IMG/VR virus record: IMGVR_UViG_3300009593_004150
Span: 1 to 64,000 of that record
Length of the DNA stretch: 64,000 nt
Reading direction: 5' to 3' (one strand)
Origin: a virus
Part shown: positions 109 to 39,113 of the stretch, one piece after another
Layout: each line of letters begins with the position of its first letter
How positions within the stretch are numbered: the first letter of the stretch is position 1
Made by a program: the position numbers and the translations under genes
Notes under the pieces: model-generated
What the model was told of the DNA's origin: nothing
The model's input: the letters and a program-made list of their open reading frames with translations, nothing else
Databases searched by the model: none

Positions 109-305
109 TGGACGTCATGGTACCCTATACTATTATTCTACAGAACACCACAACCGGAAGCGTGTCTAGCAAGGTCATACAGGCACCACAAGATGCTAAG
201 CGCGCCCAACGGTATGTTACCACCAATCACGCAGATGCTGCCCATGTCGTGGCACTAGTGAAGGGTAACCATCCAGTTATTCATGGCACTCCGGGGTCAG
301 CATGA
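108..305 (+). CDS. Small conserved-type phage protein, 65 aa, function unknown
   Basis: The start is well supported: AAGGAG at 95-100, a 7-nt spacer, and a one-base overlap with the preceding stop. The product begins MDVMVPYTIILQNTTTG and looks like a single alpha/beta domain. A first beta-hairpin is followed by a helix containing QDAKRAQRY, then a short strand ending in a His-rich tail. No catalytic motif is visible. The stop overlaps the next ATG as ATGA. It belongs to a run of tiny accessory proteins. I do not recognise a named family. Confidence 0.65.
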   Translation: MDVMVPYTIILQNTTTGSVSSKVIQAPQDAKRAQRYVTTNHADAAHVVALVKGNHPVIHGTPGSA

Positions 306-565
306 TGGACGAGCCGCTACAAACAATAGCAGACATTCTAGATTTCCCTGAACCAGGAACCAAAGAGCACAACCAACTGCGACTACGATCCTATAGGAAT
401 GAAAGGGTATCGGGTTGGGGGGTACCAGAGACAGAAATATTCGATACAGCCTGTAGTCTACACGATAAGGGACTGGTTAATATAGTCTGGGATGGTACAG
501 AGCCCATGTTTCAAGTATCAGAGTTTGGTGCAGAGCTAAGCAAACACGTGCAAACGTCTGACTAG
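302..565 (+). CDS. Small protein with winged-helix-like C-terminal half, 87 aa
   Basis: It starts at the ATGA overlap with the previous gene; a second in-frame ATG follows at 305. The C-terminal half has the pattern of a compact winged helix: a helix with IFDTACSLHDKGLV, a hairpin with an aspartate turn, then a strand and short helix (FQVSEFGAEL). The same helix, KG turn, strand, wing and S/T-x-x-G order is seen in the 12777-13046 protein, so the two may be distant paralogues. A role in DNA binding is inferred from this shape only. A TATAATAG box follows the stop codon. Confidence 0.6.
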   Translation: MMDEPLQTIADILDFPEPGTKEHNQLRLRSYRNERVSGWGVPETEIFDTACSLHDKGLVNIVWDGTEPMFQVSEFGAELSKHVQTSD

Positions 566-570
566 TATGG

Positions 571-578
571 TATAATAG
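571..578 (+). promoter_or_regulatory. TATAATAG box, candidate promoter -10 element
   Basis: TATAATAG is preceded by TGG, which resembles an extended -10. No TTGACA-like hexamer lies 16-18 nt upstream. It sits 25 nt before the ATG at 604. The same octamer or a close variant occurs before many transcription units in this window. Confidence 0.4.
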
Positions 579-603
579 ATCTATAAGGAATGGAGAGGAC
601 ATC

Positions 604-753
604 ATGATTCGCGTAGGAGACCAGGTACAGCACATCGAAACCGGCCGCACAGGTCGCTGCGTTGCGCTACGCCGGGGAGCCGGCGTCTTTCTGATCCTGT
701 GGGCAGACGGCCCTTGTACAAATCACATTGGGGGTGTGCTGCGGAAAGTGTAA
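604..753 (+). CDS. SH3-like mini-protein, 49 aa
   Basis: An ATG with GGAGAGG just upstream (about 590-597) opens a 49-codon frame ending at TAA 751-753. The product has the beta pattern MIRVGDQVQ, a TGRTG turn, CVALRR, then VFLILWADG and a final strand VLRKV. This GD-x-V, G-x-V, V-x-W-x-x-G order is typical of small SH3/KOW-like barrels common in phage accessory zones. Similar patterns occur in the proteins at 1416, 2013, 2418 and 11412. GC content is higher than in the structural genes. Function is unknown; nucleic-acid or partner-protein binding is a guess. Confidence 0.65.
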   Translation: MIRVGDQVQHIETGRTGRCVALRRGAGVFLILWADGPCTNHIGGVLRKV

Positions 754-1043
754 CAATACCAAGGGGTTAGAGCACCGTAACAAGGGGCTGTTACGGAGGG
801 GCCTGTATACAGCCCGGGAAGGGCCCCCAAAACAGGCCCCCTCATGTGCCGCTTTAGGCCCCCTCTAGAGGCCCCCTTGCATACTCTGTGGAGCCTTCTC
901 CCCGGCCACCGTCGCTAAGTCCGCGCTCTCGTTTCTCGAGAATATTTCGAATCGAACAGCAGCTCCATCTCGGAGCTTTTATTTTATCCAAAACAAAAAA
1001 ACGTAGTACAATTAAAGTGTTACACCCCAACGAAAGGTTGATG
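754..1043 (+). other. 290-nt non-coding leader with hairpins and AGGCCCCCT repeats
   Basis: No supported gene lies here. It holds a perfect 8-bp hairpin at 775-796 (CCGTAACA / TGTTACGG, 6-nt loop). It is followed by a GC-rich stretch in which AGGCCCCCT occurs three times (834-842, 856-864, 869-877). A GAGGGGCCTGT near 795-805 can pair with ACAGGCCCCCTC at 833-844. No U-run follows, so this does not look like a simple terminator. An ATG at 888 extends the 1044 frame upstream, but it lacks a ribosome site and its sequence is low-complexity. Confidence 0.45.
934..962 (+). repeat. Leader repeat copy 1 (TCTCGAG...AATCGA...GCAG)
   Basis: About 28-29 nt closely matching 1385-1412. Both begin TCTCGAG, contain an A/T-rich core with TTTC, then AATCGA and end GCAG. 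Each lies upstream of a small gene (1044 and 1416), which suggests a shared control or recombination element. Confidence 0.45.
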
Positions 1044-1334
1044 ATGGTTAAGTTGGTAGTAAATGAAGACAATTGGAAAGATGCACTCCCTATCGTAGTA
1101 ATGCACTATAGAGATATGGAGATGATGGAACCGGGCACACCACTACTTAAAAAGATTCGAAAGCAATATGCAGATATGGCTCAAGGCGGAGATGGTGGTC
1201 CGGTAAGTGGTACCCCGAATATCAAGAGAGAGCGCTTCATCCGACACTATCCCTCAGTCAGGTCCAGTAGCTATCCCGATGCACCCAATGAGTTCTTTCA
1301 GGAACTATGTGATCTACTAGGATGGGCAAGATAA
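1044..1334 (+). CDS. Hypothetical protein, 96 aa
   Basis: I place the start at the ATG at 1044 because AAAGG ends 6-7 nt upstream. The frame extends back to 888, but that part is Pro/Arg/Ser-rich and lacks a ribosome site. The product begins MVKLVVNEDNW, has a helix with DALPIVVMHYRDMEMM, a Gly-rich linker (QGGDGG) and a C-terminal helix rich in Phe/Leu/Trp (EFFQELCDLLGWAR). No family or catalytic motif is recognised. The mixed start evidence keeps confidence moderate. Confidence 0.5.
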   Translation: MVKLVVNEDNWKDALPIVVMHYRDMEMMEPGTPLLKKIRKQYADMAQGGDGGPVSGTPNIKRERFIRHYPSVRSSSYPDAPNEFFQELCDLLGWAR

Positions 1335-1384
1335 GATTTCAGAACGAGCAGTAAAAACCAAAAACCGTAAAATGACTCGAGAGA

Positions 1385-1412
1385 TCTCGAGCATTTTTCT
1401 AATCGAGAGCAG
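1385..1412 (+). repeat. Leader repeat copy 2
   Basis: Second copy of the TCTCGAG...AATCGA...GCAG element, ending 3 nt before the ATG at 1416. Its CGAGAG may also act as a weak ribosome site for that gene. Just upstream, CTCGAGAGATCTCGAG is a nearly perfect palindrome (about 1376-1391). Confidence 0.45.
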
Positions 1413-1415
1413 ACT

Positions 1416-1985
1416 ATGAAAGGGTGGAAAGACAACCAAAAAAAATATACCATTAAGCTAGACACTAGTGATGACGTATGGGGGGCCGAACCAGACTTAC
1501 TCAATGATCTCTATGATTGGGGTGACTTAAACCTGGCCAAGTATGAAAACAACAAGCAGGTGTGGGACGCCTATTATAAAGGAACATACGCGCGAGGCGC
1601 TTATATTGGTGACCTACCCATGAAAGGAAGCGTCCTCTCAGCCATGGACCCCTACCAGGAGAGATATGAGTTGCAAAAAGCAGACTATGAGCATATCCTC
1701 AAGAAGTGGAGCGGAACCGTAGTCCGGTTCCACCCCTACACATCGCATAGTATGAATATGCTTTACTCACCTATAGTAACACCAACGACACCAGCATACA
1801 ACCAGTCAACAAGCCGGCAGGACTGGTCCGAGCCACACTACAACAAGTGTGGCACAGTCGTTCAAGTCGACAGCAAGCCCAACTATAAAGGGCAATGGCA
1901 CGTCACAATCCTCTGGCCCGATGGGCTCATGAGCTATGAAAACATATCCGACCTAACAATCGTATTTCCGGAATCAGAATCGTAA
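1416..1985 (+). CDS. Hypothetical protein with C-terminal SH3-like domain, 189 aa
   Basis: The start ATG follows a purine-rich GAGAGCAG. The N-terminal two thirds are Tyr/Trp/Asp-rich with several YE/YD repeats and no known motif. From about residue 140 the pattern CGTVVQVDS...WHVTILWPDG resembles the SH3-like mini-proteins nearby, so this may be a fusion of an unknown region to that barrel. It lies on the same strand as the neighbouring small genes with its own repeat-bearing leader. Function is unknown. Confidence 0.6.
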   Translation: MKGWKDNQKKYTIKLDTSDDVWGAEPDLLNDLYDWGDLNLAKYENNKQVWDAYYKGTYARGAYIGDLPMKGSVLSAMDPYQERYELQKADYEHILKKWSGTVVRFHPYTSHSMNMLYSPIVTPTTPAYNQSTSRQDWSEPHYNKCGTVVQVDSKPNYKGQWHVTILWPDGLMSYENISDLTIVFPESES

Positions 1986-2012
1986 CTGCCCGGAGCTCCA
2001 TATATTATTATA

Positions 2013-2318
2013 ATGGCTATAAGGATTGGCAAACCTTGCCTGACTGGAGCACACTTGAGACATACAAAGAAGTTCGCGGCGGGAGATTTAGTACGCATCG
2101 CTGCCCTACCACGTGGGAATAGTAGTAGTCCCGTTTGGAAACCTGATCCTTCAGGGCCATACATTGGTTTGGTTATAGACGAGAAAGACATGCAAAAGAT
2201 GAGTGCTATCGTGGGCCAATGCTTGCTTATTGAACTAGAAACAGGGGAGTTAGTAACCCTAAGCTCAAACCTGCTAGAGCATGCCCTTCACGACACAACT
2301 CATTTACACGCAAATTAA
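2013..2318 (+). CDS. SH3-like small protein, 101 aa
   Basis: The frame opens at ATG 2013 directly after ATTATTATA. GGAGCT lies 16 nt upstream, too far for a normal ribosome site, so the start is uncertain. After a basic N-terminus the pattern AAGDLVRIAAL, a proline-rich loop, YIGLVIDEKD, CLLIELETGELVTL and a short helix matches a beta-barrel with the GD-x-V entry seen in the 604 and 2418 products. Possible paralogue group; function unknown. Confidence 0.55.
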   Translation: MAIRIGKPCLTGAHLRHTKKFAAGDLVRIAALPRGNSSSPVWKPDPSGPYIGLVIDEKDMQKMSAIVGQCLLIELETGELVTLSSNLLEHALHDTTHLHAN

Positions 2319-2404
2319 TTTCGTTAAAGTATCTATAAGCTGATACGCCGGCGGCTCACCTGGTTATATTTGGGTTATTGCTAATGGGGATTAAGCTAAA
2401 GGTA

Positions 2405-2412
2405 TATAATAG
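2405..2412 (+). promoter_or_regulatory. TATAATAG box before the 2418 gene
   Basis: A TATAATAG octamer ends 5 nt before the ATG at 2418. No -35 hexamer is at normal spacing. If it is a true -10, transcription would begin at or just after that ATG, implying a leaderless message or the downstream in-frame ATG at 2436. Confidence 0.35.
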
Positions 2413-2417
2413 ACAAT

Positions 2418-2639
2418 ATGCAAAGACGTGAATTTATGCGTGGGGATCTGGTTGATATACGAGAACCTGCTAATCATGCGTATGAAGAGGTTGACACAAA
2501 ACGAGGCGCACTAGTCCTAGACTATCTAGCGAGTAACGTTTATGAACCGGCATATTGCGAGGTCCTGTTTCGGGGAAATATCTTTTACGTGAAGACTCGG
2601 TATCTCTACTTTAGTGACCCTGCTGGAGTGAAAGGGTAG
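2418..2639 (+). CDS. SH3-like small protein, 73 aa
   Basis: The product shows MRGDLVDIREP, an acidic loop, RGALVLDYL, then YCEVLFRGNIFYVKTRYL. This GD-x-V, G-x-V, V-x-F-x-G, Y-V order fits the SH3-like mini-protein group. The start may be 2418 or the in-frame ATG at 2436; AAAGG lies 15 nt before the first, and a TATAATAG box is almost on top of it. No catalytic residues are evident. Confidence 0.55.
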   Translation: MQRREFMRGDLVDIREPANHAYEEVDTKRGALVLDYLASNVYEPAYCEVLFRGNIFYVKTRYLYFSDPAGVKG

Positions 2640-2924
2640 GGGGTTGAACATCAACCTCATCCCGGGTTCACTCATACGGGTTAGTCTTAAGGGCATTCCG
2701 GTCCCACGTATATATTCCATTAGGTTCTACTAACTAGTGACTCTAAGGGCCTTGTGGAGGCTCCCACATATGCACATGTGGTCACTTTCCCCTTATGCTC
2801 CATAATTAAACATTAGTAAGTTCAAGTTACCGTTAATGTTGGCCGAACGTGGTCGTTTCCGTTTGCACCTAAGTTGCGTTATCTGAGTTCTGTAATTTCT
2901 TAATATGAACAAGGAGAAAACACA
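2640..2924 (+). other. 285-nt leader with nested hairpins, no gene
   Basis: No coding frame is supported. An outer pair AGTGAC (2736-2741) / GTCACT (2781-2786) encloses CCACAT (2764-2769) / ATGTGG (2776-2781) and a GTGGAG...CTCCCAC pair. The element GTTTGCACCTAAG at 2861-2873 recurs at 3349-3361. AAGGAG serves the ATG at 2925. This looks like a regulated leader; I see no known riboswitch class. Confidence 0.4.
2861..2873 (+). repeat. GTTTGCACCTAAG leader element, copy 1
   Basis: An exact 13-nt match to 3349-3361. Each copy lies 35-52 nt before the start of one of two adjacent genes (2925 and 3397). It could be an operator or a promoter upstream element. Confidence 0.4.
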
Positions 2925-3278
2925 ATGAAAGAACTATTAAAAGATGCCTGGGCTGTTGTTGAATCAACCGTTTCGGGTCTATGGGAAGTCGCTGGAGACG
3001 TAATTCAATTAGCAATAATTGAAGATCCATTTTGGCGTGGAGTTGAAATGACTCTCATCGCCGGTCTATTAATCTCTAAGAGACATGCAATACTTGATAT
3101 TGCTGAGAAAACCCCTATAGTTGGAGGCATACTGGTCTATGTACCACGTAAGATTGACGAAGGCGTTGATTTTTTGATGTGCAAAGTCAAAGAAGGAATG
3201 TCTTGGTTACGTAGTAAGACCCTTGATCCGGTTAAATCCTGGATCTCGAAAGCTGACGCTAAACTAAGAAATAAATAA
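2925..3278 (+). CDS. Small membrane-associated protein, 117 aa
   Basis: The start has a good ribosome site (AAGGAG about 9 nt upstream). The N-terminal 40 residues form an amphipathic helix rich in Trp and Val. Residues about 41-75 contain a hydrophobic stretch (MTLIAGLLIS, then IVGGILVYV) that could cross or lie in a membrane. The C-terminal 35 residues are basic and helical. No signal peptide or enzyme motif is visible. A role at the envelope is inferred only from hydrophobicity. Confidence 0.6.
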   Translation: MKELLKDAWAVVESTVSGLWEVAGDVIQLAIIEDPFWRGVEMTLIAGLLISKRHAILDIAEKTPIVGGILVYVPRKIDEGVDFLMCKVKEGMSWLRSKTLDPVKSWISKADAKLRNK

Positions 3279-3348
3279 TAACCTTTGTTGTGAGACATTG
3301 ATAGACATTTAAGGATTGGTTTTTACATTAACGATTTAATAATTTAAA

Positions 3349-16499: not shown

Positions 16500-16531
16500 C
16501 GGTTTAGCCTATCGGCATAACCAAAAAATAG

Positions 16532-16539
16532 TATAATAG
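16532..16539 (+). promoter_or_regulatory. TATAATAG box before yeaH-spoVR-prkA
   Basis: TATAATAG lies 49 nt before the ATG of the YeaH-like gene in an 89-nt gap. No -35 is visible. It is the likely promoter for the stress-kinase set. Confidence 0.45.
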
Positions 16540-16588
16540 TTTTGCAGGCTATACATTCACCGAGTTATGGAGAATATTTAATAAAGTT

Positions 16589-17785
16589 ATGTCTATATTT
16601 AAAGAACACAAAGATACTGTTGATCGATCGTCCACAGACCGACGTCGGCATAAACAAAAAATAGAAAAAGCCATCCGAGAAGGTGTACATAACATCATCG
16701 CGGATGAGAGTATCATTGGCCAGGACGGAAAAAAGAAGATTCGGATACCTGTTAAAGGCATCAAAGAATACAGGTTCGTTTACGGTGAAAACAACAACAA
16801 TAAGCGTGTTGGATCAGCCCAAGGCAAAAACATTGCCAGGGGCCAGCAGATCGGCAAAGAACAAAAGCAAAAGCAACAAGGCCAAGGTGACAAGGCTGGA
16901 AATGAAAAGGGTGTTGAATATTATGATGTTGAAATTACCCTTGAGGAACTTGCCGCATATCTCTTTGACTCATTAGAGCTTCCTGACCTCGAAAGAAAGC
17001 AGATTCAAAAGATATTTGAAAAGAAGATGCAGAGGCACGGGTACCGAAGCGAAGGTATTAGGCCTCGTCTAGACAAAAAGCAAACGATAAAAAAGAAACT
17101 AAAGAGAAAGGCCGCGGCGAAAAGAGTTGGTACCTTTAAAGAAGGTGAGGACTCCGGTGAGGAAGAACGGTTCCCGTTTCACAATAATGATCTAAGGTAT
17201 AGGCATATAAAGCCAGTAATGAAATCCACCTCAGCAGCTGCTATATTTTTTGTAATGGATATCTCCGGCTCAATGGGGAAAGAAAAAAAATATCTAGCTA
17301 GAAGCTTTTTCTTTTTATTGTACCAATTTATTAGGCATCGCTATGAAAATGTAGAGATTGTCTTTGTTGCTCATGACACTCAAGCATATGAAGTTAATGA
17401 AGAACAATTCTTTACTAGAGGCCAAGGCGGAGGAACTATAGTTTCAGTCGCACTTGAAACAGTTTTAGAGATTGTACAGAAAAGATTCCATCCAGACAGT
17501 TGGAACATATATACATTCCATTGCTCGGATGGTGACAACTGGCCAAGTGACAATGAGAAATCAGTTAGGTTGAGTGAACAGTTAAAAGAAGTTTCACAAT
17601 TATATAGCTATTGCCAAATCGTACCAGAGGATGATAGGATTCGGTGGGCTAGAGATGATGAAAATACACTGGCTGGTGTATACTCACACTTAGAAGACTC
17701 TGCATTTAAAATTGTAAAGATCCACTCTAATGAAGATATTTGGCCGGCGTTTAAACGATTATTCGGAGGTAAGCTAGGTGTCTGA
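16589..17785 (+). CDS. YeaH/YhbH-family protein (DUF444) with vWA domain
   Basis: A 398-residue member of the YeaH/YhbH family. The N-terminus is basic and charged (STDRRRHKQKIEKAIREG), the middle has the conserved R-x-KPVMKS approach, and the vWA domain starts at FFVMDISGSMG with the MIDAS DISGS at 224-228. HCSDGDNW and GGGT motifs follow. In E. coli yeaH is co-transcribed with the PrkA-type kinase gene yeaG and acts in nitrogen-starvation and stationary-phase responses; the biochemical role is unclear. Here it overlaps spoVR by 8 nt, and prkA follows. The ribosome site is poor (GGAG 17 nt upstream). Confidence 0.9.
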   Translation: MSIFKEHKDTVDRSSTDRRRHKQKIEKAIREGVHNIIADESIIGQDGKKKIRIPVKGIKEYRFVYGENNNNKRVGSAQGKNIARGQQIGKEQKQKQQGQGDKAGNEKGVEYYDVEITLEELAAYLFDSLELPDLERKQIQKIFEKKMQRHGYRSEGIRPRLDKKQTIKKKLKRKAAAKRVGTFKEGEDSGEEERFPFHNNDLRYRHIKPVMKSTSAAAIFFVMDISGSMGKEKKYLARSFFFLLYQFIRHRYENVEIVFVAHDTQAYEVNEEQFFTRGQGGGTIVSVALETVLEIVQKRFHPDSWNIYTFHCSDGDNWPSDNEKSVRLSEQLKEVSQLYSYCQIVPEDDRIRWARDDENTLAGVYSHLEDSAFKIVKIHSNEDIWPAFKRLFGGKLGV

Positions 17786-19085
17786 TTGGAATATTAAATT
17801 ACTACAAGAGTGGGATGAACGAATCCTTAAGTTAGCTCAGGACAATGGGCTGGACTGGCATCCTATCGTATATGAGACATGTGACTATTATGAAATGATA
17901 GGGCACATGTCCTACCATGGGCTTCCTTCCCACTATTGCCATTGGTCATATGGTAAATCGTTTGAAAGGACACACCAGCTATATGATGCAGGCCAGACAG
18001 GCCTTCCATATGAACTTATCATTAACTCAAATCCGTCTATAGCATATCTTATGCGGGAAAATCCAGCATACCTACAGATCTTGATCATGTGTCACTGTGT
18101 AGGCCACTCTGATTTCTTTAAGCATAACAGGATGTTTTCTAGAACGAACCCAGATACGGTAACTAGAAGATTCCGGAATGCTAGAAACAGGATTCAGGGT
18201 TATATTGAAGATCCCAGTATCGGCATGGAAAAAGTTGAAAATATCTTGGATGCTGCGCATGCGGTTAAGTACCAGATCAACCGGCACTATGTTAAGAGAT
18301 TTAGTCATAGCGAACTTAAAGAAGAATATACTAAGAAAATTAAAAATGATAAGACCGGTGAGTACGCTGACTTTGATATAGAGAAAATACCTCTAGAGCC
18401 AGAGTATGATATGCTTAACTTTATTATTGATCACTCAAAAAATCTTAAAGATTGGGAGAGAGATCTTGTCGAGATAGTTAAGGCTGAATCATATTATTTT
18501 ATGCCTCAAATCCAGACAAAGATCATGAATGAAGGTTGGGCTAGTTACTGGCACTACCGATTAATGCATGAGTTAGAGCTTCCTCAAAAGTACCATGTAC
18601 CCTTTCTTAAGAGCCACAACCAAGTTATTAGGCCACATATCGGTGCGGTTAACCCGTACCATTTAGGGTTTCACTTATTCCAAAAGATTGAGGAAAGATA
18701 TGGCATGGAACAAATGTTCCTTGCTAGGGAAATTAACCATGACATGTCATTCCTTAGAGAATATTTGACTGAAGATGATCTATATGAACTTAACATGTTT
18801 TCATTTTCTAAGAAGCGGTCTGGATACTCAATTGATGAAATTTCAGACGTCGACGGATGGAAATATGTCAAACAAGACCTTATCAATAACGTAGGAGATG
18901 GTACAATACCAAAAATATATGTTGAAAATGTTGATCATGGTAATATTCTAGTTGTTAAACACGAACATGATGGAAGAGATTTAGAGTTAAATTATGCAGA
19001 TGAGGTTGTTAAACATGTACAGACGTTATGGGGAGACCCAGTTAAATTATTGACCGTGGTTGAAGAAGAACCTTGGGAAATTTAG
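17778..19085 (+). CDS. spoVR: SpoVR/YcgB-family protein
   Basis: A 435-residue SpoVR family member, slightly shorter than the usual about 470-510. It starts at a GTG with a strong GGAGGT 7 nt upstream, inside the end of the YeaH gene. Conserved features include the early WHPIVYETCDYYEMI region, HCVGHSDFFKHN near residue 105, and NEGWASYWHYRLM near residue 250. SpoVR was named from Bacillus spore cortex work and is widespread in proteobacteria next to PrkA and YeaH; its activity is not settled. The phage copy completes the three-gene set. Confidence 0.92.
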   Translation: MSDWNIKLLQEWDERILKLAQDNGLDWHPIVYETCDYYEMIGHMSYHGLPSHYCHWSYGKSFERTHQLYDAGQTGLPYELIINSNPSIAYLMRENPAYLQILIMCHCVGHSDFFKHNRMFSRTNPDTVTRRFRNARNRIQGYIEDPSIGMEKVENILDAAHAVKYQINRHYVKRFSHSELKEEYTKKIKNDKTGEYADFDIEKIPLEPEYDMLNFIIDHSKNLKDWERDLVEIVKAESYYFMPQIQTKIMNEGWASYWHYRLMHELELPQKYHVPFLKSHNQVIRPHIGAVNPYHLGFHLFQKIEERYGMEQMFLAREINHDMSFLREYLTEDDLYELNMFSFSKKRSGYSIDEISDVDGWKYVKQDLINNVGDGTIPKIYVENVDHGNILVVKHEHDGRDLELNYADEVVKHVQTLWGDPVKLLTVVEEEPWEI

Positions 19086-19142
19086 TTTTTAGTTTGACTA
19101 ATCAAAACATACTTAATAGTAGAAAATACAGGACACAAAAAA

Positions 19143-21077
19143 ATGGCTAAAAAGAAAAACACGAATTTTTTAGAACTAATCGAAACTCAAAGGAATAGTT
19201 CAAAGCGAGAAAAGTTTAAGGGTACGTTTATTGAATACCTAGAACTAGTCCAGCAGAACCCAGACCTAGCAAAGCTTTCCCACAAAAGGTTATGCGATGC
19301 AATTGAGTCCCATGGTGTATCAAAAATGGAAGACGATGACCCAAGAAAGCATAAGCTATTCGGGGGAGACAATGTCAAACTATTTGATTACTTTCAAGAT
19401 GAATTTTTTGGGATGGAAAAGGTTATTTCAAAATTAATGACATTCCTCAAGTCAGCCTCACTTAAAGGTGAAGAGAGTCGCCAGGTACTATTATTAATGG
19501 GCCCTGTTGGTGCAGGTAAATCAGCATTGACAGAACATATTAAAAGAGCCCTCGAGGGACTTCCTTACTTCCACCTGGTCGGTGACCCGCAGCGTGGTGA
19601 ACCATTACAATTGGTACCAAGAAGTTTAAGGGATCAATTCCAGGGTGCTTTAGGTGTAAAGATTGAAGGTGACATTAGTCCTGTAGCAAGACACCTTCTT
19701 CTAGAAGAGCATGGCGGAAAGTATGAAGACTTCCCGGTCGTTGAAACCACATTTTCTCAGAGAGCAAGGCGTGGGGTTGCAGCGGTACCTCCAATGGATG
19801 CAAATAGCCAAGACACCAGCGTCCTGATTGGTTCTGAAGATATTTCTAAATTAGACATGTATCCCGAGGATGATCCACGCGTACTTTCACTAAACGGTGC
19901 ATTTAACGTTGGTAACCGTGGTATTGTAGAATTTATTGAGTTATTCAAAAATGAGATTGAGTTCCTCCATACTATTATTACTGCAACACAGGAAAAGCGT
20001 GTTCCATCCCCTGGTCGCAGCGATATGCTTCACTTTGATGGTGTCATCTTAGCACACTGTAACGAAGCTGAGTGGAACCGGTTTAGATCACAGCATACCA
20101 ACGAGGCCATCCTGGATCGTGTTGTAAAGATTAACGTACCATATGTTCTAGAGCTTGATCAAGAAATTAAGATCTACGAAAAGCAATTGAGCAGGTCAGA
20201 CTTTAGCGCACACATTGCACCTCATACAATCAAGGTTGCCTCGATGTTCTCAGTAATGTCTAGACTTAAGCAATCACAAAAGTGTGACATCATCACAAAG
20301 ATGAAGATCTATAATGGTGAAGATGTAATTGAGAAGGGAAGAGTTAAAAAGATTGACATTAAGGATCTAAGAGAAGAAGCCCGAGATGAGGGCATGAACG
20401 GAATCTCTACTAGATTTATTATGAAGTCAATTGATAATGCTCTTACTAGTGCAGACAAGCCCTTAATTACTCCGGTATCAATCATTAACTCTCTAACGAT
20501 GAAAGTCAAAGAGCAACTTATCGATGAAGAGTTTCGCACATATTGCCTTGAGCTACTTAAGGTCGTAAGAGAAGAATACCTACGCATCTTAGAAACAGAG
20601 ATTGCCAAGGCTTTCATTACCGCATATGAAGAGCAGGCACAAAGCTTGTTTGACAACTACCTAGATAATGCAGAGGCCTACACAACACGCCAGAAGATTA
20701 AAGATCGGATCACAAAGGAATCTCGAGAGCCAGATGAAGACTTCATGAGAACGATTGAAGAACAAATTGGTATTGTTGGATCTTCTAGAGACGGATTCCG
20801 GTCCGACGTAACGGCATATATGTTCGCAAAACTAAGAAGAGGCGAGACAGTTAACTATCAAAGTTATGAGCCTCTTAAGGAAGCCGTTGAAGGTTACCTC
20901 ATTGGTTCTGTTAAGGACATGGCTAGGATTGTTACCAAGTCGAAGACTAGGGACGATGAGCAACAAAAGAAGCACAGCGAGATGGTACAGGTCATGATCG
21001 ATGAGTATGGCTACAACGCAGACTCAGCAGAAGAGATACTTACCTACGCTAGCAACAATCTTTGGCGCGACAGCTAA
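19143..21077 (+). CDS. prkA: PrkA-family serine protein kinase (YeaG-like)
   Basis: A 644-residue protein, the normal length for PrkA (about 640). The AAA+ part carries Walker A GPVGAGKS (120-127) after a conserved FFGMEK segment, with GDPQRGEPLQLVP and ILAHCNEAEWNRF downstream. The C-terminal part is the kinase/coiled region with EEQIGI and FRSDV motifs. In hosts PrkA/YeaG is an ATP-dependent serine kinase (and reported protease) active in starvation and stress. With YeaH and SpoVR directly upstream, the phage could drive or dampen that response. TTGACT at 19094-19099 may be part of an internal promoter. Confidence 0.92.
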   Translation: MAKKKNTNFLELIETQRNSSKREKFKGTFIEYLELVQQNPDLAKLSHKRLCDAIESHGVSKMEDDDPRKHKLFGGDNVKLFDYFQDEFFGMEKVISKLMTFLKSASLKGEESRQVLLLMGPVGAGKSALTEHIKRALEGLPYFHLVGDPQRGEPLQLVPRSLRDQFQGALGVKIEGDISPVARHLLLEEHGGKYEDFPVVETTFSQRARRGVAAVPPMDANSQDTSVLIGSEDISKLDMYPEDDPRVLSLNGAFNVGNRGIVEFIELFKNEIEFLHTIITATQEKRVPSPGRSDMLHFDGVILAHCNEAEWNRFRSQHTNEAILDRVVKINVPYVLELDQEIKIYEKQLSRSDFSAHIAPHTIKVASMFSVMSRLKQSQKCDIITKMKIYNGEDVIEKGRVKKIDIKDLREEARDEGMNGISTRFIMKSIDNALTSADKPLITPVSIINSLTMKVKEQLIDEEFRTYCLELLKVVREEYLRILETEIAKAFITAYEEQAQSLFDNYLDNAEAYTTRQKIKDRITKESREPDEDFMRTIEEQIGIVGSSRDGFRSDVTAYMFAKLRRGETVNYQSYEPLKEAVEGYLIGSVKDMARIVTKSKTRDDEQQKKHSEMVQVMIDEYGYNADSAEEILTYASNNLWRDS

Positions 21078-21140: not shown

Positions 21141-21476
21141 ATGAAAAGTATATTCCCTGGCTTATCCATTATTTGTGGTACGGCCTTGATTATTGCAGGA
21201 AACACAACCGCAGGTATTGTTTTTGCCGTTCTAGGATTTTGCGGTGCCTTAGCCGGCGCTGCTATCCGACACCAGCAAGAGGTTGAAGCCTTAGCTGTTG
21301 CGAAAGAGTTTATTGAAGCTCTTTCAAAGAAATCCACTTCAGAAGACCAGATTGCAGAAATGCAAGCAGCAATGGGACAATTAGGGGGAGCTTTAGGAGA
21401 AATTTGGAAAGCTCTAACTACTCCCGGAACAGATGACTGGAACTCGAATGGTGGTAGCGGTGGAATCACACACTAA
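21141..21476 (+). CDS. Small membrane protein with Gly/Ala helices, 111 aa
   Basis: AGGTG 5 nt upstream supports the start. Residues 1-45 are hydrophobic with two short Gly/Ala-rich spans (LSIICGTALIIAG and IVFAVLGFCGALAGAAI), then a charged helical tail (VEALAVAKEFIEALSKK) and a Gly/Ser/Asn end. This could be a two-span membrane protein. The 3' end overlaps the GroEL-like gene by 44 nt. The upstream inverted repeat suggests translational or transcriptional control of both. No family is recognised. Confidence 0.6.
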   Translation: MKSIFPGLSIICGTALIIAGNTTAGIVFAVLGFCGALAGAAIRHQQEVEALAVAKEFIEALSKKSTSEDQIAEMQAAMGQLGGALGEIWKALTTPGTDDWNSNGGSGGITH

Positions 21477-22875
21477 AAAAGAAGAAGTACTTAACTATAC
21501 TTCCCCAACATTTGGGCGTGATGTTCTAAGCCAGGCAGTACCGTATATTGAACGACTAGATAACCTCCTTTCAGAGCTTATTTCAAGCCGGCTTACCCTA
21601 GATAACAACGGCCAAATTCATAAACTGACTGCAGCAGACATCCGCCAGTTTCTGTTCGCGAGCACGCGCGCGCGCGGGGGAGTAGAGATATGCATACGAA
21701 ATATGCTTCTAGAAAATGCAATGACATTAGAAAACCGATCAGGATTTTCATCACTAATAGCAACTACATATGCTATCAAGACTTTGAAATCCCATATTGG
21801 AAAACTACGCACAACGACTAACCATACAATTGATATTAGCAACGATATTGAAGAACTCTCTATGATGTCCAGGAGAGCCTCTAAGGACATTGCATTTAAA
21901 TCCATTAAGGAATATTGTAGGGACCCCCTATCGTCATCTATCATCCTTCAAGCATGCAGCATGACTGGACATAGCGGGCAGGTTTACATTGATAGCACTC
22001 CGGCTAATGAAAATAGCATTGAGCTAACAAACGGGTATACTTTTAAGTTTGGATTAGAGCCAAACTTTTGTGCTAGCAGCAAGACAACGGAATGGAAAGA
22101 ATATTCTCCTAAAGTACTACTGATCGATGGAATTATAGAAACTGTTGGCGAAATTAATAGAGTACTTGAATACTGCCATGAAGAAAAAAGTGCATGTGTT
22201 ATTTTTGCTCGAGGATTTTCGCAAGAAGTGCTAGGGACGCTAGCGGTCAACAAAGCTAGGGATACACTAAACGTTGTCCCTGTAATGGTACCGTTCGACT
22301 TAGAAGGAATTAACTCACTAGTCGATCTTGCTAAAATTTGTAATTGTGATATCGTGTCATCACTAAAGGGAGACGCTATATCTTCTATAGAGCCTAGTGA
22401 ACTAAAGAGTATCGAATATTTTAATGGGAATGACACACAGATAGTGTTGCTAAATGACTTGACAAAGAATGCAGTTAAACGGCATATGTCAAACATATCT
22501 AGCAAGAAAGATACAGAAAGCATTCCGGATAAGATCAACCTATTGAATAAGCGACTTAGATCCTTGAGCTCTGTTTGTACGAACATCCGAATATCGGATA
22601 CAGGTCTCGATGAAAAAAATATCAAGCTTAGAATTCAACATGGAATTAACATGCTTAAGCACATATGTGTTCATGGGTATGTTAACCTTCCCGCATGCTT
22701 AGAGAGCCTTACGACAAAGAGCGTAAAAGATCTTATAAGCATGTACGTACAGGAAGGATATACGAACACATCAGCCTACGAATTAATATTGGGCCTAACA
22801 TGCGGAGAGTCTTTAACCAATAACATTTTATCATCCCGGGTTTATCTATTATTAGACGATAATAAAGATGGGTGA
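21433..22875 (+). CDS. Very divergent GroEL/chaperonin-like protein
   Basis: A 480-residue protein whose middle (about 180-315) follows the GroEL apical domain step by step. SGQVYIDS aligns with GVITVEDG, IELTNGYTFKFGLEPNF with the VEGMQFDRGYLSPYF stretch, VLLIDGIIETVGEINRVLE with the LLADKKISNIREMLPVLE stretch, and VIFARGFSQEVLGTLAVNKARDTL with the LIIAEDVEGEALATLVVN stretch. Flanking helices match the intermediate and equatorial parts in order. The ATPase signature GDGTTT is replaced by RSGFSSL (102-108), so hydrolysis may be lost. It is shorter than GroEL (about 548). The start is uncertain (21433 or 21448). The alignment is by eye, so homology needs a profile search. Confidence 0.6.
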   Translation: MTGTRMVVAVESHTKKEEVLNYTSPTFGRDVLSQAVPYIERLDNLLSELISSRLTLDNNGQIHKLTAADIRQFLFASTRARGGVEICIRNMLLENAMTLENRSGFSSLIATTYAIKTLKSHIGKLRTTTNHTIDISNDIEELSMMSRRASKDIAFKSIKEYCRDPLSSSIILQACSMTGHSGQVYIDSTPANENSIELTNGYTFKFGLEPNFCASSKTTEWKEYSPKVLLIDGIIETVGEINRVLEYCHEEKSACVIFARGFSQEVLGTLAVNKARDTLNVVPVMVPFDLEGINSLVDLAKICNCDIVSSLKGDAISSIEPSELKSIEYFNGNDTQIVLLNDLTKNAVKRHMSNISSKKDTESIPDKINLLNKRLRSLSSVCTNIRISDTGLDEKNIKLRIQHGINMLKHICVHGYVNLPACLESLTTKSVKDLISMYVQEGYTNTSAYELILGLTCGESLTNNILSSRVYLLLDDNKDG

Positions 22876-24618: not shown

Positions 24619-24959
24619 GGGGACGATATGGTTTCGACGAGGTAACGTAGATTAAGAGTGCAAGCAACCAACGGTAACAACTGGTTTGACAATGTTACAA
24701 AAACTTAATTGCCAACAATAACGACAATTACGAATACGCTCTAGCAGCTTAATCGGGTGGCTTCCTAAGGCCATCTAACCAATTTAGGATAAGTGGTTGA
24801 TCCCACCGAAACAAACAAGATCAAAACTCTTTCGGCCGCGGACTATAGAGGATAAAATACAGCGGATGATTTGTTATTTTAAAGAAAATAAACAAGCTTG
24901 TGAATGACTTGATTTTGAAACTATTTCGGACGCGGGTTCGAACCCCGCCGTCTCCACCA
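24619..24959 (+). ncRNA. ssrA: Phage-encoded one-piece tmRNA, tag ANNNDNYEYALAA
   Basis: The 341-nt RNA has the tRNA-like ends of SsrA: 5' GGGGACG pairs with 3' CGTCTCC followed by ACCA, the D-loop-like GGTTTCGACG, and the T-arm GCGGGTTCGAACCCCGC. The tag frame runs from GCC 24711 to TAA 24750-24752 and reads ANNNDNYEYALAA, ending in the YALAA degron that ClpXP/ClpAP recognise. It is slightly shorter than the E. coli RNA (363 nt). It would rescue stalled ribosomes and tag incomplete proteins. No smpB was seen in the window, so host SmpB is probably used. Confidence 0.95.
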
Positions 24960-24972: not shown

Positions 24973-26115
24973 ATGACTTCTACTTTGAAGAACATAAGGC
25001 ACATTAAAACCAAAAAAAAGGGAAAAAATATGAGTACAAAAGACGACAAAAACGTAGATGATACGTACATCAACCCCGAAGAAGACGATTGGGGATTTGT
25101 CGGCGGTATGGACGAAACCGTCGTTGTTGATGAAAGACAACTTCCGGACAACACTGCAGTCAGTGCACTTAATTGTGGCTTTGTTGGTGTCGGAGGCGGT
25201 GGTGGAAAGCTAGCAAAAGCATTTTTAGATCTAGGTTTTAATAAAACTATCTTAGTCAATACAACAGAAAAAGATCAGCCGGCCGGGATTGATCCTCAAC
25301 ATTTTATGCAGATTCCAGGAACAGATGGAGTCGGAAAAGATGTTAACCTCGGTAAGAAAGTGCTTTCTGATAATAGCGCAATGGTCGAAGATGCCCTTAG
25401 ATCTAGGCTAGGAAAAGTTGATTGGGTATTTGTATTGGCTGGTGGTGGCGGAGGAACAGGATCCGCATGCCATGCCCTTCATGGGGCATGTGAAAGATAC
25501 CTTAAGTCAATTGAATCAGGTGGTGGAGTTGTATACATCGTTACAAAACCGTCTGCACAAGAGCTTTTAAACCCAGCAATTGAAGAAAACTACAGCAGCT
25601 TGCTCAGTGATGTGAAGGAACACCCATACATTATAATTGATAATGAAAGGCAACTTCAGTTACTAAGAGGCAAGGTTGGGATGCTTGATATGTACCCGGC
25701 AGCAAACGGAATGTTTGCCAAGTCATTACACCAAGTGTTAAAACTAGCTGCTAGCTCCTCAGAAATATCAGCATTTGATTCAAATGATCTAGAGAGATGT
25801 CTATCAGTACCTGGCCGTATATTCTTAGGAACAACAGTTGTGAAGGACCCAGGTGGGCGAGATTTAGGCGCTAGCGTTTTCCAAGGTTGCCTCAAAGGTT
25901 CTGCATGCCCGTCCCCCACAGGCAAACCTGCAACCGGTGTACTACTGTTATTGGTAACATCTGCCATGGCATCCGATCCGGATATCAGCAACCGGCTAGA
26001 AGCTGCTAGCGCATATGTAGGTGGCCGAGCAGACACATTGTTTACCGGAATCTATGTTAATGACAAAATCCCAGGCCTTATATCACTAACGATATTCGGT
26101 GGGATTAAAGAATAA
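24973..26115 (+). CDS. FtsZ/tubulin-like GTPase
   Basis: A 380-residue FtsZ/tubulin-superfamily protein. After an acidic N-terminal extension, CGFVGVGGGGGKLAKAF (about 68-84) matches the first nucleotide loop. LAGGGGGTGSACHALHG (155-171) is the tubulin signature G-G-G-T-G-S. HPYIIIDNERQL and FDSNDLERCL match the later FtsZ T6/H7 elements. AGGGG is 9 nt before ATG 24973; ATG 25030 is an alternative start. Relatives form GTP-driven filaments for division, plasmid partition (TubZ) or phage nucleus positioning (PhuZ). It could build a phage filament or poison host FtsZ. The subfamily cannot be told by eye. Confidence 0.8.
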   Translation: MTSTLKNIRHIKTKKKGKNMSTKDDKNVDDTYINPEEDDWGFVGGMDETVVVDERQLPDNTAVSALNCGFVGVGGGGGKLAKAFLDLGFNKTILVNTTEKDQPAGIDPQHFMQIPGTDGVGKDVNLGKKVLSDNSAMVEDALRSRLGKVDWVFVLAGGGGGTGSACHALHGACERYLKSIESGGGVVYIVTKPSAQELLNPAIEENYSSLLSDVKEHPYIIIDNERQLQLLRGKVGMLDMYPAANGMFAKSLHQVLKLAASSSEISAFDSNDLERCLSVPGRIFLGTTVVKDPGGRDLGASVFQGCLKGSACPSPTGKPATGVLLLLVTSAMASDPDISNRLEAASAYVGGRADTLFTGIYVNDKIPGLISLTIFGGIKE

Positions 26116-26515: not shown

Positions 26516-27829
26516 ATGAGTAATAGAAAGATCCTAGTTTTAGATACATCAGTACTGCTTTATGACAAAGAGGCAATACACTCCCTACCAGGAAATGATG
26601 TTGTTATACCACTAACTGTCTTAGATGAATTAGACAGGTTTAAAGAAAAGAAGGGACTATTAGGAGAAAATGCAAGGTACGTCAATCGGTATTTAGATAC
26701 GCTAAGAGAAAGTGGACATCTAGATAAAGAAGTAATGATTGAAGACAATGATCAAACGATCAGAGTAGAAATTGAGGCCAATGAAGATATTAGAGTACCT
26801 GATGGTTTAAATGCTAGTTTTGCTGATAACAGAATCTTAGCAACTGCATTATACCTACAGAGGCTTAATCCCAAAAAGACTACTAAGCTTATTACAAAAG
26901 ACATTAACCTTAGGGTAAAATGTGATGCGCTTGGAATTCCTGCAGAAGATTATTATAAGGACCACATTGAGACTGATAATGTATACTCTGGTGAGGTTGA
27001 GGTTAATCTCTTTAAGGAGCAAATTGATACGTTTTTTGAGGATGGCCGGCTAGACTCCGATGATGTTGACTTAGAGGAGCTGTCACCGGGAATTCTCGAG
27101 AATCAATTTATTTTAGGCACAGAGCCTGGCGGCGGATCTCTTTTAGGGATTAACAAGGGTGGCTCGATTGAGCAACTTCATAATGCTGCAACCAATAAGA
27201 GCTCCGGAATTGAGCCAAGAAATAAAGAACAAAAGTTTGCACTTGAGCTTTTAAATGACCCGAACATTCAGCTAGTTACGTTAACTGGAATTGCAGGATC
27301 GGGAAAAACCTTCCTAACATTACTCAGTGCCATGGGCCACCTTACCGGCGATACGTACAAAAGAATAGTTTTTACAAGGTCAATTGAGCCTGTAGGAAGG
27401 GACTTAGGTTATTTACCTGGTGATATAGATGAAAAGATGTCACCATGGTTAGCACCTATTGTCGACAACTTTAGGCATGCCTTTGGTGACACAACCTATT
27501 TTGAATGTATGTTACAAAAGGGCCAAATTGATATTGCACCCCTATCATACATTCGGGGCCGGACATTTAATGATTCATTTGTAATTGTTGATGAAGCACA
27601 AAATGCTACCATTCACGAATTAAAAACAGTTATAACAAGAATCGGCAATGGCTCAAAGATTGTCTTACTAGGTGATACTGATCAGGTTGATACACCTTAT
27701 ATTGATAGCAAATCAAATGGTTTGTCAATCATTATAGAGAAATTCAAGGACTCAAACCTAACCGGACATATTCGATTAAGCAGAGGCCAGAGATCAGATA
27801 TTGCAACATTAGCTTCAAAGATTCTTTAG
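26516..27829 (+). CDS. phoH: PIN-PhoH fusion ATPase
   Basis: A 437-residue two-domain protein. The N-terminal PIN domain (about 1-150) has VLDTSVLLYD, VLDELDRFK and SFADNRILATALYL acidic clusters typical of RNase active sites, with TKDINLRVK following. The C-terminal PhoH domain carries Walker A TGIAGSGKTFLTL (about 258-270) and Walker B FVIVDEAQNA (about 353-362). Related PIN-PhoH proteins show RNA unwinding and cleavage. PhoH-family ATPases are very common in phages of aquatic bacteria. It could degrade or remodel host or phage RNA. GGAGAA gives a fair ribosome site. Confidence 0.9.
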   Translation: MSNRKILVLDTSVLLYDKEAIHSLPGNDVVIPLTVLDELDRFKEKKGLLGENARYVNRYLDTLRESGHLDKEVMIEDNDQTIRVEIEANEDIRVPDGLNASFADNRILATALYLQRLNPKKTTKLITKDINLRVKCDALGIPAEDYYKDHIETDNVYSGEVEVNLFKEQIDTFFEDGRLDSDDVDLEELSPGILENQFILGTEPGGGSLLGINKGGSIEQLHNAATNKSSGIEPRNKEQKFALELLNDPNIQLVTLTGIAGSGKTFLTLLSAMGHLTGDTYKRIVFTRSIEPVGRDLGYLPGDIDEKMSPWLAPIVDNFRHAFGDTTYFECMLQKGQIDIAPLSYIRGRTFNDSFVIVDEAQNATIHELKTVITRIGNGSKIVLLGDTDQVDTPYIDSKSNGLSIIIEKFKDSNLTGHIRLSRGQRSDIATLASKIL

Positions 27830-35404: not shown

Positions 35405-37306
35405 ATGTTTGAAAGTCCGTTTGATAATGGTATACCTGATGATACTGAGGTAATCTTTGTAAGCGATTTTTTCGTTGAACATGTATTAGGCGGAGCAGAA
35501 TTAAGCAGTGAAGCACTAATCGAATCATCACCTTTTAAAGTACATAAATTAATTAGTTCAGATGTTACTGTTGAGGTACTGAATCAGCATTCTGATAAGT
35601 ATTGGATATTTGGTAATTACGTAAAGATGGATCTGAATCTGATTCCATCAATTATTGCAAATATCAATTACAGCATTATTGAATATGACTATAAATTTTG
35701 CAGATATCGATCACCTGAAAAGCATGCTTTAGAGTCTGGTTCATGTAACTGTGAAAATGATATTCATGGAAAGATGATATCTGCATTTATGCATGGTAGT
35801 AAAAGTCTTTGGTGGATGTCTGAAAAGCAGAAAGATCTATATGTAACGAAATTCCCCTTTCTATCAGATAATGATAATACTGTACTTAGTTCAATATTCT
35901 CAGAATCATTCTTTATGATGGTAGATTATTTGAAACATAAAAATTCAGGTACTGATCGATCTAAGTGGCTGGTACTAGGAAGTACATCATGGGTTAAAGG
36001 TACTGATAATGCTGTACAGTATGCAATTGACAATGATTTAGATTACGAATTAATTCAAAACCTTCAGTATGACGACATGTTAGAAAAGTTGTCAACTGCA
36101 AAAGGCCTAGTATTTCTTCCTGCCGGAGGAGATACATGTCCACGGATTGTTATTGAAGCTAAAATCTTGGGCTGTGAATTAGTACTAAATGAAAATGTTC
36201 AACACAAGGATGAGTTATGGTTTAACTCAGGCATATCGGATTTAGTTAGTTATTTGCATGCTGCTCGAGAAAGATTCTGGGGCGGAATATCATCTAACAT
36301 GAACTATAAAGCAACCATCAGTGGCTACACAACAACCCTTGATTGTATTAAAGGTGGGTATCCATGGAGACAATCAATCGAATCAATGTTAGGCTTCTGT
36401 GATGAAGTGGTTGTTGTTGATGGTGGTAGTACAGATGGAACATATGAGGCTTTAGCTGACTGGTCAACCTCTGATGATCGCCTTAGGGTCATTCGTATTG
36501 CACGAGATTGGGATCATCCAAGGTTTGCAGTATTTGATGGGGCTCAAAAAGCAGCCGCTAGATCTAACTGCACGATGGAGTATTGTTGGCAACAAGATGC
36601 TGATGAGGTTGTACATGAAGATGATTATGAAAAGATTCTTAAGTTAATTAAATCATTCCCTCGCGAAGCTGATTTAGTTTCTCTTCCTGTAATTGAATTT
36701 TGGGGAAACAAAGGCAAGGCCCGGATGGACGTTACTCCATGGAAATGGCGTGTCTCTAAAAATAACCCCAGCATTACCCATGGAATCCCTGCCTCACTTC
36801 GAACCTATGACGAAGATGGTTATCTTCATGCATTACCAGGTACGGACGGGTGTGATTATATTAATAAGGACACATTCGAATTAATTCCTCATGCATCTTT
36901 TTACGTAGCCGAAGCTCATAATATGAGAGTTGCGGCATTAGCCGGCAACTCTGATGCTGTTGCAGCATATACTGGATGGTATCAAAACATTATCAATATG
37001 ATTCCTTCGGTATATCATTATTCATGGTTTGATATAGGAAGAAAAATCCAGACGTATAAAAATTACTGGTCCCAGCACTGGCAGAGCTTGTATGACATAC
37101 CTCAAGAAGATACACCTGACAATAATATGTTTTTTGAAAAACCATGGGCGGATGTAAGCGATGATGATATTACAGCATTAGCTCATGAGCTCGAAGAGAA
37201 CATGGCCGGCTGGGTTTTTCATGAAAAGGTTAATTTTGACAATCCAACACCGGCCCTAGACATTAAGTACTCGCACCCCGCTGTTATGGAGTTAACGAAT
37301 GAGTAA
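35405..37306 (+). CDS. Two-domain glycosyltransferase (GT-B-like plus GT2)
   Basis: AGGAG 9 nt upstream fixes the start. The N-terminal about 290 residues resemble a GT4/GT-B half: VIFVSDFFVEHVLGGAEL at the start, WLVLGSTSWVKGTDNAV, and FLPAGGDTCPRIVIEAKILG. From about 300 a GT2/GT-A domain follows: ATISGYTTTLDCI, VVVVDGGSTDGTYEAL and WQQDADEVVHEDD with the metal-binding D-A-D. The N half may be only a partial GT-B, since no full donor domain is obvious. It likely adds sugars to a surface glycan, virion protein or lipid. It is the first gene of the glycan island after the operator-like region. Confidence 0.8.
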   Translation: MFESPFDNGIPDDTEVIFVSDFFVEHVLGGAELSSEALIESSPFKVHKLISSDVTVEVLNQHSDKYWIFGNYVKMDLNLIPSIIANINYSIIEYDYKFCRYRSPEKHALESGSCNCENDIHGKMISAFMHGSKSLWWMSEKQKDLYVTKFPFLSDNDNTVLSSIFSESFFMMVDYLKHKNSGTDRSKWLVLGSTSWVKGTDNAVQYAIDNDLDYELIQNLQYDDMLEKLSTAKGLVFLPAGGDTCPRIVIEAKILGCELVLNENVQHKDELWFNSGISDLVSYLHAARERFWGGISSNMNYKATISGYTTTLDCIKGGYPWRQSIESMLGFCDEVVVVDGGSTDGTYEALADWSTSDDRLRVIRIARDWDHPRFAVFDGAQKAAARSNCTMEYCWQQDADEVVHEDDYEKILKLIKSFPREADLVSLPVIEFWGNKGKARMDVTPWKWRVSKNNPSITHGIPASLRTYDEDGYLHALPGTDGCDYINKDTFELIPHASFYVAEAHNMRVAALAGNSDAVAAYTGWYQNIINMIPSVYHYSWFDIGRKIQTYKNYWSQHWQSLYDIPQEDTPDNNMFFEKPWADVSDDDITALAHELEENMAGWVFHEKVNFDNPTPALDIKYSHPAVMELTNE

Positions 37307-38036
37307 TCACTTTAAGGTCATAGTCCCTGTTTATAATGCAGAGGAGTTTGTAGCTAGGTGCTTATATTCAATTTGGGCACAGACACACACTAACTGGTCT
37401 ATGGTTATTATTGATGACAACTCTAACGATGGTACCGTTTCAGAGATTAATCGATTTCTGGATAAGTTTACTAGAGCTAAAGACAAAGTAACAGTCATTC
37501 AAAATGATAAGCAGTACCATGCCTTAGCAAACATTTTGACCGGTGTTAGCATGGCTAGCGATGATGATATTATATGTCATGTTGATGGTGATGATTGGCT
37601 ATCTGACATGGATGCGTTAACACTTATCAATGAACAATATGAACATCCAACACATGATGTAGGTGCAGTGTGGACAAACCAGCGTTGGGGCTTTACGATT
37701 TCCGGAAACTCCGGCCCTTTACCTGAGAATGCAGACTGCTATGCTCATGAGTGGGTTTCGAGCCACCTTAAGACTTTCCGCCGCTATTTGATTAATGATA
37801 TTAACATGGAAAATTTTTATGATGATAGTGGAAAGTACTTTAAGAGAATAGCTGATCAAGCAATATACTTGCCGGTACTCGAAGTATGCCGGAGGAATAA
37901 TATGTTAAGAACATACCTTCCTATCTGTGCTTATCACTATAATGTTGATCATAGTTCTATAGACTTCCAATCTGATGATTCACATCATCAACATGCCGAA
38001 GCAGCATTTTTGAGAAAACGCGGTTTTCTAGAATGA
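37299..38036 (+). CDS. GT2-family glycosyltransferase
   Basis: A 245-residue GT-A enzyme overlapping the previous gene by 8 nt, with GGAG about 9 nt upstream. It has the classic N-terminus FKVIVPVYNAEEFVARCLYSI (split: FKVIVPVYNAEE / FVARCLYSI), VIIDDNSNDGTV and the D-x-D in CHVDGDDWL (about 95-103). It uses a nucleotide-sugar donor and inverts the linkage. The acceptor is unknown. Tight coupling implies joint work with the upstream bifunctional enzyme. Confidence 0.88.
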   Translation: MSNHFKVIVPVYNAEEFVARCLYSIWAQTHTNWSMVIIDDNSNDGTVSEINRFLDKFTRAKDKVTVIQNDKQYHALANILTGVSMASDDDIICHVDGDDWLSDMDALTLINEQYEHPTHDVGAVWTNQRWGFTISGNSGPLPENADCYAHEWVSSHLKTFRRYLINDINMENFYDDSGKYFKRIADQAIYLPVLEVCRRNNMLRTYLPICAYHYNVDHSSIDFQSDDSHHQHAEAAFLRKRGFLE

Positions 38037-38055
38037 ACTTTTGTTAACCTTGATG

Positions 38056-38063
38056 TATAATAT
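38056..38063 (+). promoter_or_regulatory. TATAATAT box before the epimerase gene
   Basis: TATAATAT lies 26 nt before the ATG at 38090 in a 53-nt gap. No -35 at normal spacing. It may allow the second half of the glycan island to be expressed separately. Confidence 0.4.
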
Positions 38064-38089
38064 ACTAGAATCAATTAGGAGAAATTTTG

Positions 38090-39085: not shown

Positions 39086-39113
39086 CTGAACATTTGTTTA
39101 GTGTTCGTTATAC

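Follow-up and report, generated by a model that had tools for sequence, protein, structure and literature searches.

An intact vWA-SpoVR-PrkA gene trio that a clade of T4-like jumbo phages keeps as a unit

The three genes and their conserved residues

We analyzed a window of 64,000 nucleotides (positions 1 to 64,000 of the IMG/VR virus record IMGVR_UViG_3300009593_004150) and found in it three adjacent genes whose products belong to the vWA/DUF444 (YeaH/YhbH), SpoVR, and PrkA families. The whole record has 70,360 bases, a size at which it is probably a genome fragment. All three genes lie on the plus strand: the vWA/DUF444 gene at 16589-17785 (398 amino acids, ATG start), the SpoVR gene at 17778-19085 (435 amino acids, GTG start), and the PrkA gene at 19143-21077 (644 amino acids, ATG start). 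The vWA/DUF444 and SpoVR genes share exactly 8 nucleotides (17778-17785), and 57 nucleotides separate SpoVR from PrkA. A first-pass annotation had described three full-length homologues together on one strand, with an 8-nucleotide overlap between the first two, as a complete phage-borne stress-kinase set with an intact Walker A motif. The open reading frames and near-full Pfam coverage bear out the full-length, single-strand arrangement, and the overlap is as it was given.

Each product matches its family over nearly the whole profile. PrkA matches PF08298 (AAA_PrkA; E value, 3e-133; positions 2 to 358 of 358) and PF06798 (PrkA C-terminal domain; E value, 2e-79; positions 1 to 255 of 255), both far above the cut-off, and a solved relative (9xip) is matched at an E value of 6e-93. 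The vWA protein matches PF04285 (DUF444) at an E value of 4e-117, and its best NCBIfam model is TIGR02877 (spore_yhbH), at 416 bits under a cut-off of 468. SpoVR matches PF04293 at an E value of 8e-116 (positions 1 to 403 of 407) and the SpoVR_C family PF24755 over positions 1 to 53 of 55. Given these E values and the conservation in more than 100 viral loci described below, chance is excluded as the source of the trio.

The residues expected to matter are also retained. The Walker A motif of PrkA, GPVGAGKS at residues 120 to 127, is intact, as the first-pass annotation had it. Loss of conserved PrkA catalytic residues, which that annotation had named as evidence against its view, is not seen: K126 and K428 (K116 and K426 of Escherichia coli YeaG) are invariant in all 96 phage-clade sequences. 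In the vWA protein, the metal-ion-dependent adhesion site (MIDAS) residues D224xS226xS228, T283, and D314 are invariant across phages and bacteria, and all 85 aligned SpoVR rows have H106, H110, and E252, with one additional residue between the two histidines in the proteobacterial rows.

Conservation, inheritance, and origin of the trio

A viral scan with the PrkA of the window found 210 encoding stretches, of which 80 were kept, at identities of 70 to 86%. The order vWA-SpoVR-PrkA on one strand is present in 75 of these 80 loci, and the other 5 are cut by a contig end. A retrieval based on SpoVR gave another 78 loci, many on the same contigs as the PrkA-fetched loci, and in every one of them the trio is complete and in this order. 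The genes flanking the trio vary between loci while the trio stays constant. In four loci (L015, L035, L037, and L054), the vWA and SpoVR genes are 250 to 280 nucleotides apart, which leaves room for a small extra gene, and the trio is otherwise intact. For a check independent of the trio, phages were fetched with the portal protein of one relative. In the 12 resulting contigs longer than 100 kb, PrkA and SpoVR are jointly present or jointly absent without exception, and both are present in 4 of 4 contigs of at least 240 kb; shorter contigs may not reach the locus. In the larger relatives (132 to 298 kb), the contig that carries PrkA also encodes a T4-type portal and prohead protease, which confirms that the trio is phage-borne.

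The window-type phages form a single clade in each gene tree, with support of 100 for PrkA, 99 for SpoVR, and 99 for vWA, and the same clade is recovered at 100 in a joint tree. Pairwise-distance correlations among the three trio genes are 0.79 to 0.82, versus 0.54 to 0.79 for other gene pairs. The congruent clades and the constant linkage rule out separate origins of the three genes and answer the question, posed in the first-pass annotation, of whether they moved as a unit. We take it as shown that these T4-like jumbo phages have retained the intact trio and that it is passed on as a unit.

We then considered whether the genes, which are of bacterial type, have no function in the phage and are either passive cargo or in decay. 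The ratio of nonsynonymous to synonymous substitution (dN/dS), computed with our own Nei-Gojobori script for pairs with dS between 0.05 and 1.5, has medians of 0.18 for vWA, 0.13 for SpoVR, and 0.04 for PrkA, and no pair exceeds 0.34; most pairs that include the window are saturated at synonymous sites, so these values rest on closer pairs within the clade. Judged by these sequence comparisons, the trio is under purifying selection. The low dN/dS values, the intact catalytic motifs, and the constant linkage over a diverse clade rule out passive or decaying cargo, whose probability we put close to nil, and are in keeping with the first-pass view of a complete set that is not decaying.

The same three full-length families occur in bacterial operons (Rhizobium etli CH02817-CH02815 [PMC3188799], E. 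coli yeaGH plus ycgB, and Clostridia-type trios). The bacterial prkA-yeaH/yhbH-spoVR operon, like the phage trio, has adjacent genes on one strand and conserved Walker A, MIDAS, and SpoVR motifs, but the phage trio differs in its order (vWA-SpoVR-PrkA rather than PrkA-vWA-SpoVR) and forms a separate viral clade. Bacterial relatives mostly have the order PrkA-vWA-SpoVR (57 loci in the bacterial scan), and the phage order was found in 6 loci of that scan. Five of these are bins of thermophilic Bacillota (L117 and L119-L122), of which L122 (Sulfobacillus) adjoins the Thermus phage branch. The sixth, L088 (NHDW01000006.1), is assigned to a metagenome-assembled genome of Methylococcaceae (TMED69); we rejected it as a bacterial donor since its 305,838-base contig holds a T4-type portal and prohead protease along with the trio and is thus a misbinned jumbo phage contig.

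The trios nearest to that of the window are of the Clostridia type, with scattered members from Flammeovirga, Myxococcota, and Sneathiellales, and their identities to the window are 53 to 60% for PrkA, 38 to 47% for vWA, and 36 to 50% for SpoVR. In the joint tree, the phage clade groups with the Clostridia type at a support of 100. Very probably, the trio was captured once for the window's clade from a Clostridia-type operon (PrkA-vWA-SpoVR) and rotated to vWA-SpoVR-PrkA. Two points count against this origin: in the SpoVR tree, the phages and all Clostridia-type rows do not form one clade, and the trees are quick, unrooted, and contain long Thermus branches, so that we infer the direction of transfer rather than read it from the root.

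The trio is not unique to the window's clade. Thermus phages phiYS40/TMA, phiLo, MN1, and Lalka8 carry it in the same order, with one extra gene inside the trio in TMA; earlier annotations list these genes as SpoVR and a serine kinase. These trios are only about 20 to 33% identical to that of the window, however, form a separate clade that stands beside Sulfobacillus-type sequences in the PrkA tree, and have Asp at the position of PrkA K428. PrkA and SpoVR are also phage-borne in uncultured megaphages (LR745206 and relatives) and are listed for the Ralstonia jumbo phage RsoM2USA as ORF28/ORF30 (PMC8504454). In the megaphages LR745206, LR756504, and LR756511, unlike in the window, the genes are ordered PrkA-vWA-SpoVR as in bacteria, and in the trees LR745206 falls with Proteobacteria and not with the window. 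In LR756502, SpoVR lies far away. The distinct placements of the window's clade, the Thermus phages, and the megaphage point to at least three separate captures.

A second viral scan of IMG/VR, with a proteobacterial-type PrkA as the query, found 199 encoding stretches, of which 80 were kept (L247-L326). These contigs are a second set, unrelated to that of the window. The bacterial order is present in 68 of the loci, and 12 miss one or two genes, ten of them ending at or near the missing gene. Of the other two, L261 has no SpoVR within 3 kb past vWA, and L267 is host DNA, as it is identical to Enterobacter yeaG-yeaH. Some loci of the set may stem from contamination or from the flanks of prophages. 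Enterobacter phage LAU1 was rejected as a carrier: its yeaG-yeaH genes stand at the edge of the record, next to genes of a prophage, and resemble flanking host DNA, and since the "complete genome" (L087; MN688132.1) opens with these host-like genes at 1-3308, the LAU1 prophage boundary is probably wrong. In the open literature, with subscription papers and preprints outside the search, we found no description of the trio as a conserved phage module.

Predicted folds and a candidate motor

The first-pass annotation treated PrkA as a serine kinase and suggested that the phage imposes or mimics a starvation state; in such a scheme, PrkA would phosphorylate host proteins during infection. This proposal is consistent with the intactness of the three proteins, with the invariance of K428, with the induction of the bacterial homologues when cells starve or enter stationary phase (PMC4664914, PMC3188799), and with kinase activity of E. 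coli YeaG in vitro, which PMC4664914 cites as reported. The predicted structure weighs against it. The AlphaFold2 model of PrkA (predicted local distance difference test [pLDDT] score, 89.1) combines an AAA+ core with a C-terminal part made of helices; in the model, residues 406 to 644 are all helical, with no kinase N-lobe, and just two strands of 3 residues each occur past residue 360. Among the Foldseek matches listed for the PrkA model, there are only AAA+ proteins, and neither a kinase nor another non-AAA+ fold is among the structural matches listed for the full model, the C-terminal domain not having been searched alone.

With VIA-align, the top match to PrkA is NorQ complexed with the NorD vWA domain (Z score, 15.3; 3.9 Å over 238 residues), followed by CbbQ (Z score, 14.5) and sigma54 activators (Z score, 14.0), with residues of about 83 to 477 aligned; the margin of NorQ and CbbQ over the sigma54 activators is only about 1 Z unit. 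N307 is the likely sensor-1 residue and R424 the likely sensor-2 arginine. K428 lies four residues past R424, in the AAA+ lid and inside the part aligned with NorQ and CbbQ, so that we would explain the E. coli K426A phenotype (PMC4664914) without a kinase domain. The Asp at this position in Thermus phages also speaks against the kinase proposal, and in B. anthracis PrkA, protease activity was negligible and kinase activity was not detected (PMC13001217). On the predicted model, the kinase reading of PrkA is weak, the serine-kinase label of the first-pass annotation is not upheld, and starvation imposed or mimicked by such a kinase is improbable.

PrkA resembles the AAA+ members of the pairs NorQ-NorD, CbbQ-CbbO, and BchI-BchD in that its predicted AAA+ fold is nearest to NorQ and CbbQ and in that its putative partner, to which it is tied by gene linkage, has a vWA MIDAS. 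It differs from NorQ and CbbQ in having an N-terminal extension and a helical C-terminal extension of about 170 residues and in having SpoVR as a third component.

For SpoVR, the AlphaFold2 model (pLDDT, 93.9) places H106 and H110 on a predicted helix (residues 97 to 116) and E252, within the motif NEGWA, on another (residues 248 to 265). NEGWA resembles NEGFA, a motif of the M1 peptidases. Zinc metallopeptidases make up 21 of the 22 best VIA-align rows, among them ERAP1 (Z score, 10.4), LTA4H (9.3), an M32 carboxypeptidase (9.3), PZ-peptidase (9.0), and lethal factor (about 5); the first row is 3o0y, a putative lipoprotein (Z score, 12.0; 183 residues, 3.8 Å). Position 107, where the catalytic Glu would stand, is Cys in all phage rows, in contrast to the Val of the Clostridia types, and Val, Ala, or Cys elsewhere. 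As it is never Glu, we class SpoVR as peptidase-like in predicted fold only and not as a peptidase. From the model and these middling Z scores, we read SpoVR as a putative metal-site protein of a peptidase (gluzincin-like) fold that would lack classical peptidase chemistry.

One related phage (L047, 3255-5816) has an intein-like insert of about 410 amino acids inside the NEGWA motif of SpoVR, beginning three residues past E252, starting with CVTGDT and ending with NHN. Inteins favor sites of this kind.

On balance, PrkA is probably an AAA+ remodeling motor of the NorQ/CbbQ (MoxR) type rather than a Hanks-type kinase; the vWA protein would then serve as the MIDAS adaptor of this motor. The motor may act on or with SpoVR, by activating or loading it or by delivering clients to it, a step that we advance tentatively; here SpoVR would be a protein of metallopeptidase fold in which a predicted metal site is retained and the catalytic Glu is lost. 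The known AAA+/vWA pairs NorQ-NorD, CbbQ-CbbO, and BchI-BchD are able to service metalloproteins, and by analogy SpoVR would fit as a client.

Several observations tell against this motor model. Foldseek alone gave no significant match to the SpoVR model, and VIA-align Z scores below about 13 may reflect an arrangement common among helical proteins. Searches of PDB sequences with SpoVR and with YeaH found nothing convincing and thus gave no solved SpoVR or YeaH for comparison. The reported kinase activity of YeaG, cited above, belongs here too, as does the residue at the position of YeaG R232, which is reported as needed in E. coli: it is Ser235 in 96 of 96 phage and 20 of 20 Clostridia-type rows and Arg in 15 of 15 proteobacterial PrkA rows. 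Since many bacterial PrkA members do not have Arg there, R232 does not define the family.

Neighboring genes and possible roles in infection

Upstream of the trio, the intergenic leader at 16500-16588 (plus strand), the gap 5' of the vWA gene, is a likely, putative site of the trio's own promoter or ribosome-binding signals. Sigma70-like promoter and terminator-like matches in the trio region occur at chance level, and T4-type late promoters were rejected, as TATAAATA is rarer than chance across the window.

Downstream and outside the trio, the next large gene (21433-22875, plus strand, 480 amino acids) encodes a divergent GroEL-like chaperonin (PHROG chaperonin, E value of 8e-17; NCBIfam GroEL, E value of 2e-17). 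It has no Pfam match, and a profile of 20 relatives matches solved GroEL at an E value of 1e-73; the gene is fast-evolving, with 17 to 38% identity among relatives. A complete phage transfer-messenger RNA (tmRNA) with the tag peptide ANNNDNYEYALAA lies at 24619-24959 (plus strand; ARAGORN and Rfam RF00023, 114 bits), 3.5 kb past PrkA. Such neighbors would suit a trio whose task is not in host physiology but in the folding of phage proteins, the assembly of particles, or proteolysis, as would the position of the Lalka8 trio between portal/minor head and terminase genes. However, in L061, L072, and L076, the GroEL-like gene has a different position with respect to the trio, whose genes remain together. 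In addition, the trio has no linked structural partner in the window's clade, and trios also occur in bacteria in the absence of phage genes; we regard a role in assembly or proteostasis as having little likelihood.

Further along the plus strand are a homologue of FtsZ/tubulin-family GTPases (24973-26115, 380 amino acids; PDB FtsZ, E value of 4e-11), present here in a phage of T4-like kin and kept in only part of the clade; a PhoH2-type protein with PIN and PhoH domains (26516-27829; NCBIfam RNA 5'-3' helicase PhoH2, below cut-off); and a sugar-gene cluster (35405-43277) of glycosyltransferases, a nucleotide-sugar epimerase, and a UDP-glucose dehydrogenase-like gene, with an exonuclease gene among them.

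A PADLOC search found no match for the trio, so a defense or counter-defense role is not backed. In bacteria, yeaG matters for sustained nitrogen starvation in E. coli (PMC4664914), and an R. etli prkA mutant has no clear stress phenotype (PMC3188799). The trio might let the phage finish infection in cells already in starvation or slow growth, by supplying a stress-maintenance machine that the host lacks or has shut down. The link of yeaGH to prolonged nitrogen starvation (PMC4664914), the keeping of the whole set by three unrelated phage groups, and the rank of spoVR as the most abundant sporulation-type viral gene in a virome survey of oxygen-minimum zones (PMC8940887) agree with this idea, but the ecological link is correlative, and taken by itself the idea seems somewhat unlikely. 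In our proposed mechanism, the motor model is joined to a broader effect: during infection, the trio could move the host towards a stress-adapted, low-growth state or sustain infection in one, a step about which we are doubtful. Taken whole, the explanation that combines a conserved module, an AAA+/vWA motor, a SpoVR client, and a low-growth state comes somewhat short of an even chance, and it is the best that we can offer. A bolder form, in which PrkA-YeaH is a NorQD/CbbQO-like remodeling pair with SpoVR, a metal-binding protein of metallopeptidase fold that has lost the catalytic Glu, as its client and the set was captured at least three times by unrelated phages as a host-takeover machine, is unlikely; if it were true, the label "stress kinase" would be equally mistaken in bacteria.

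The PrkA-YeaH-SpoVR set, common among bacteria and strongly tied to starvation and sporulation, still lacks a known mechanism. That phages keep exactly these three genes together suggests that their products act jointly as a single machine, and the phage trios are natural minimal systems for its reconstitution. For the reading of viromes, spoVR in window-type phages is part of a three-gene module and not a lone sporulation gene. The fold predictions would turn a vague stress kinase into testable claims, namely, an AAA+/vWA motor and a SpoVR with a metal site. Thus, the window holds a known module whose parts are open to a testable and possibly important reinterpretation.

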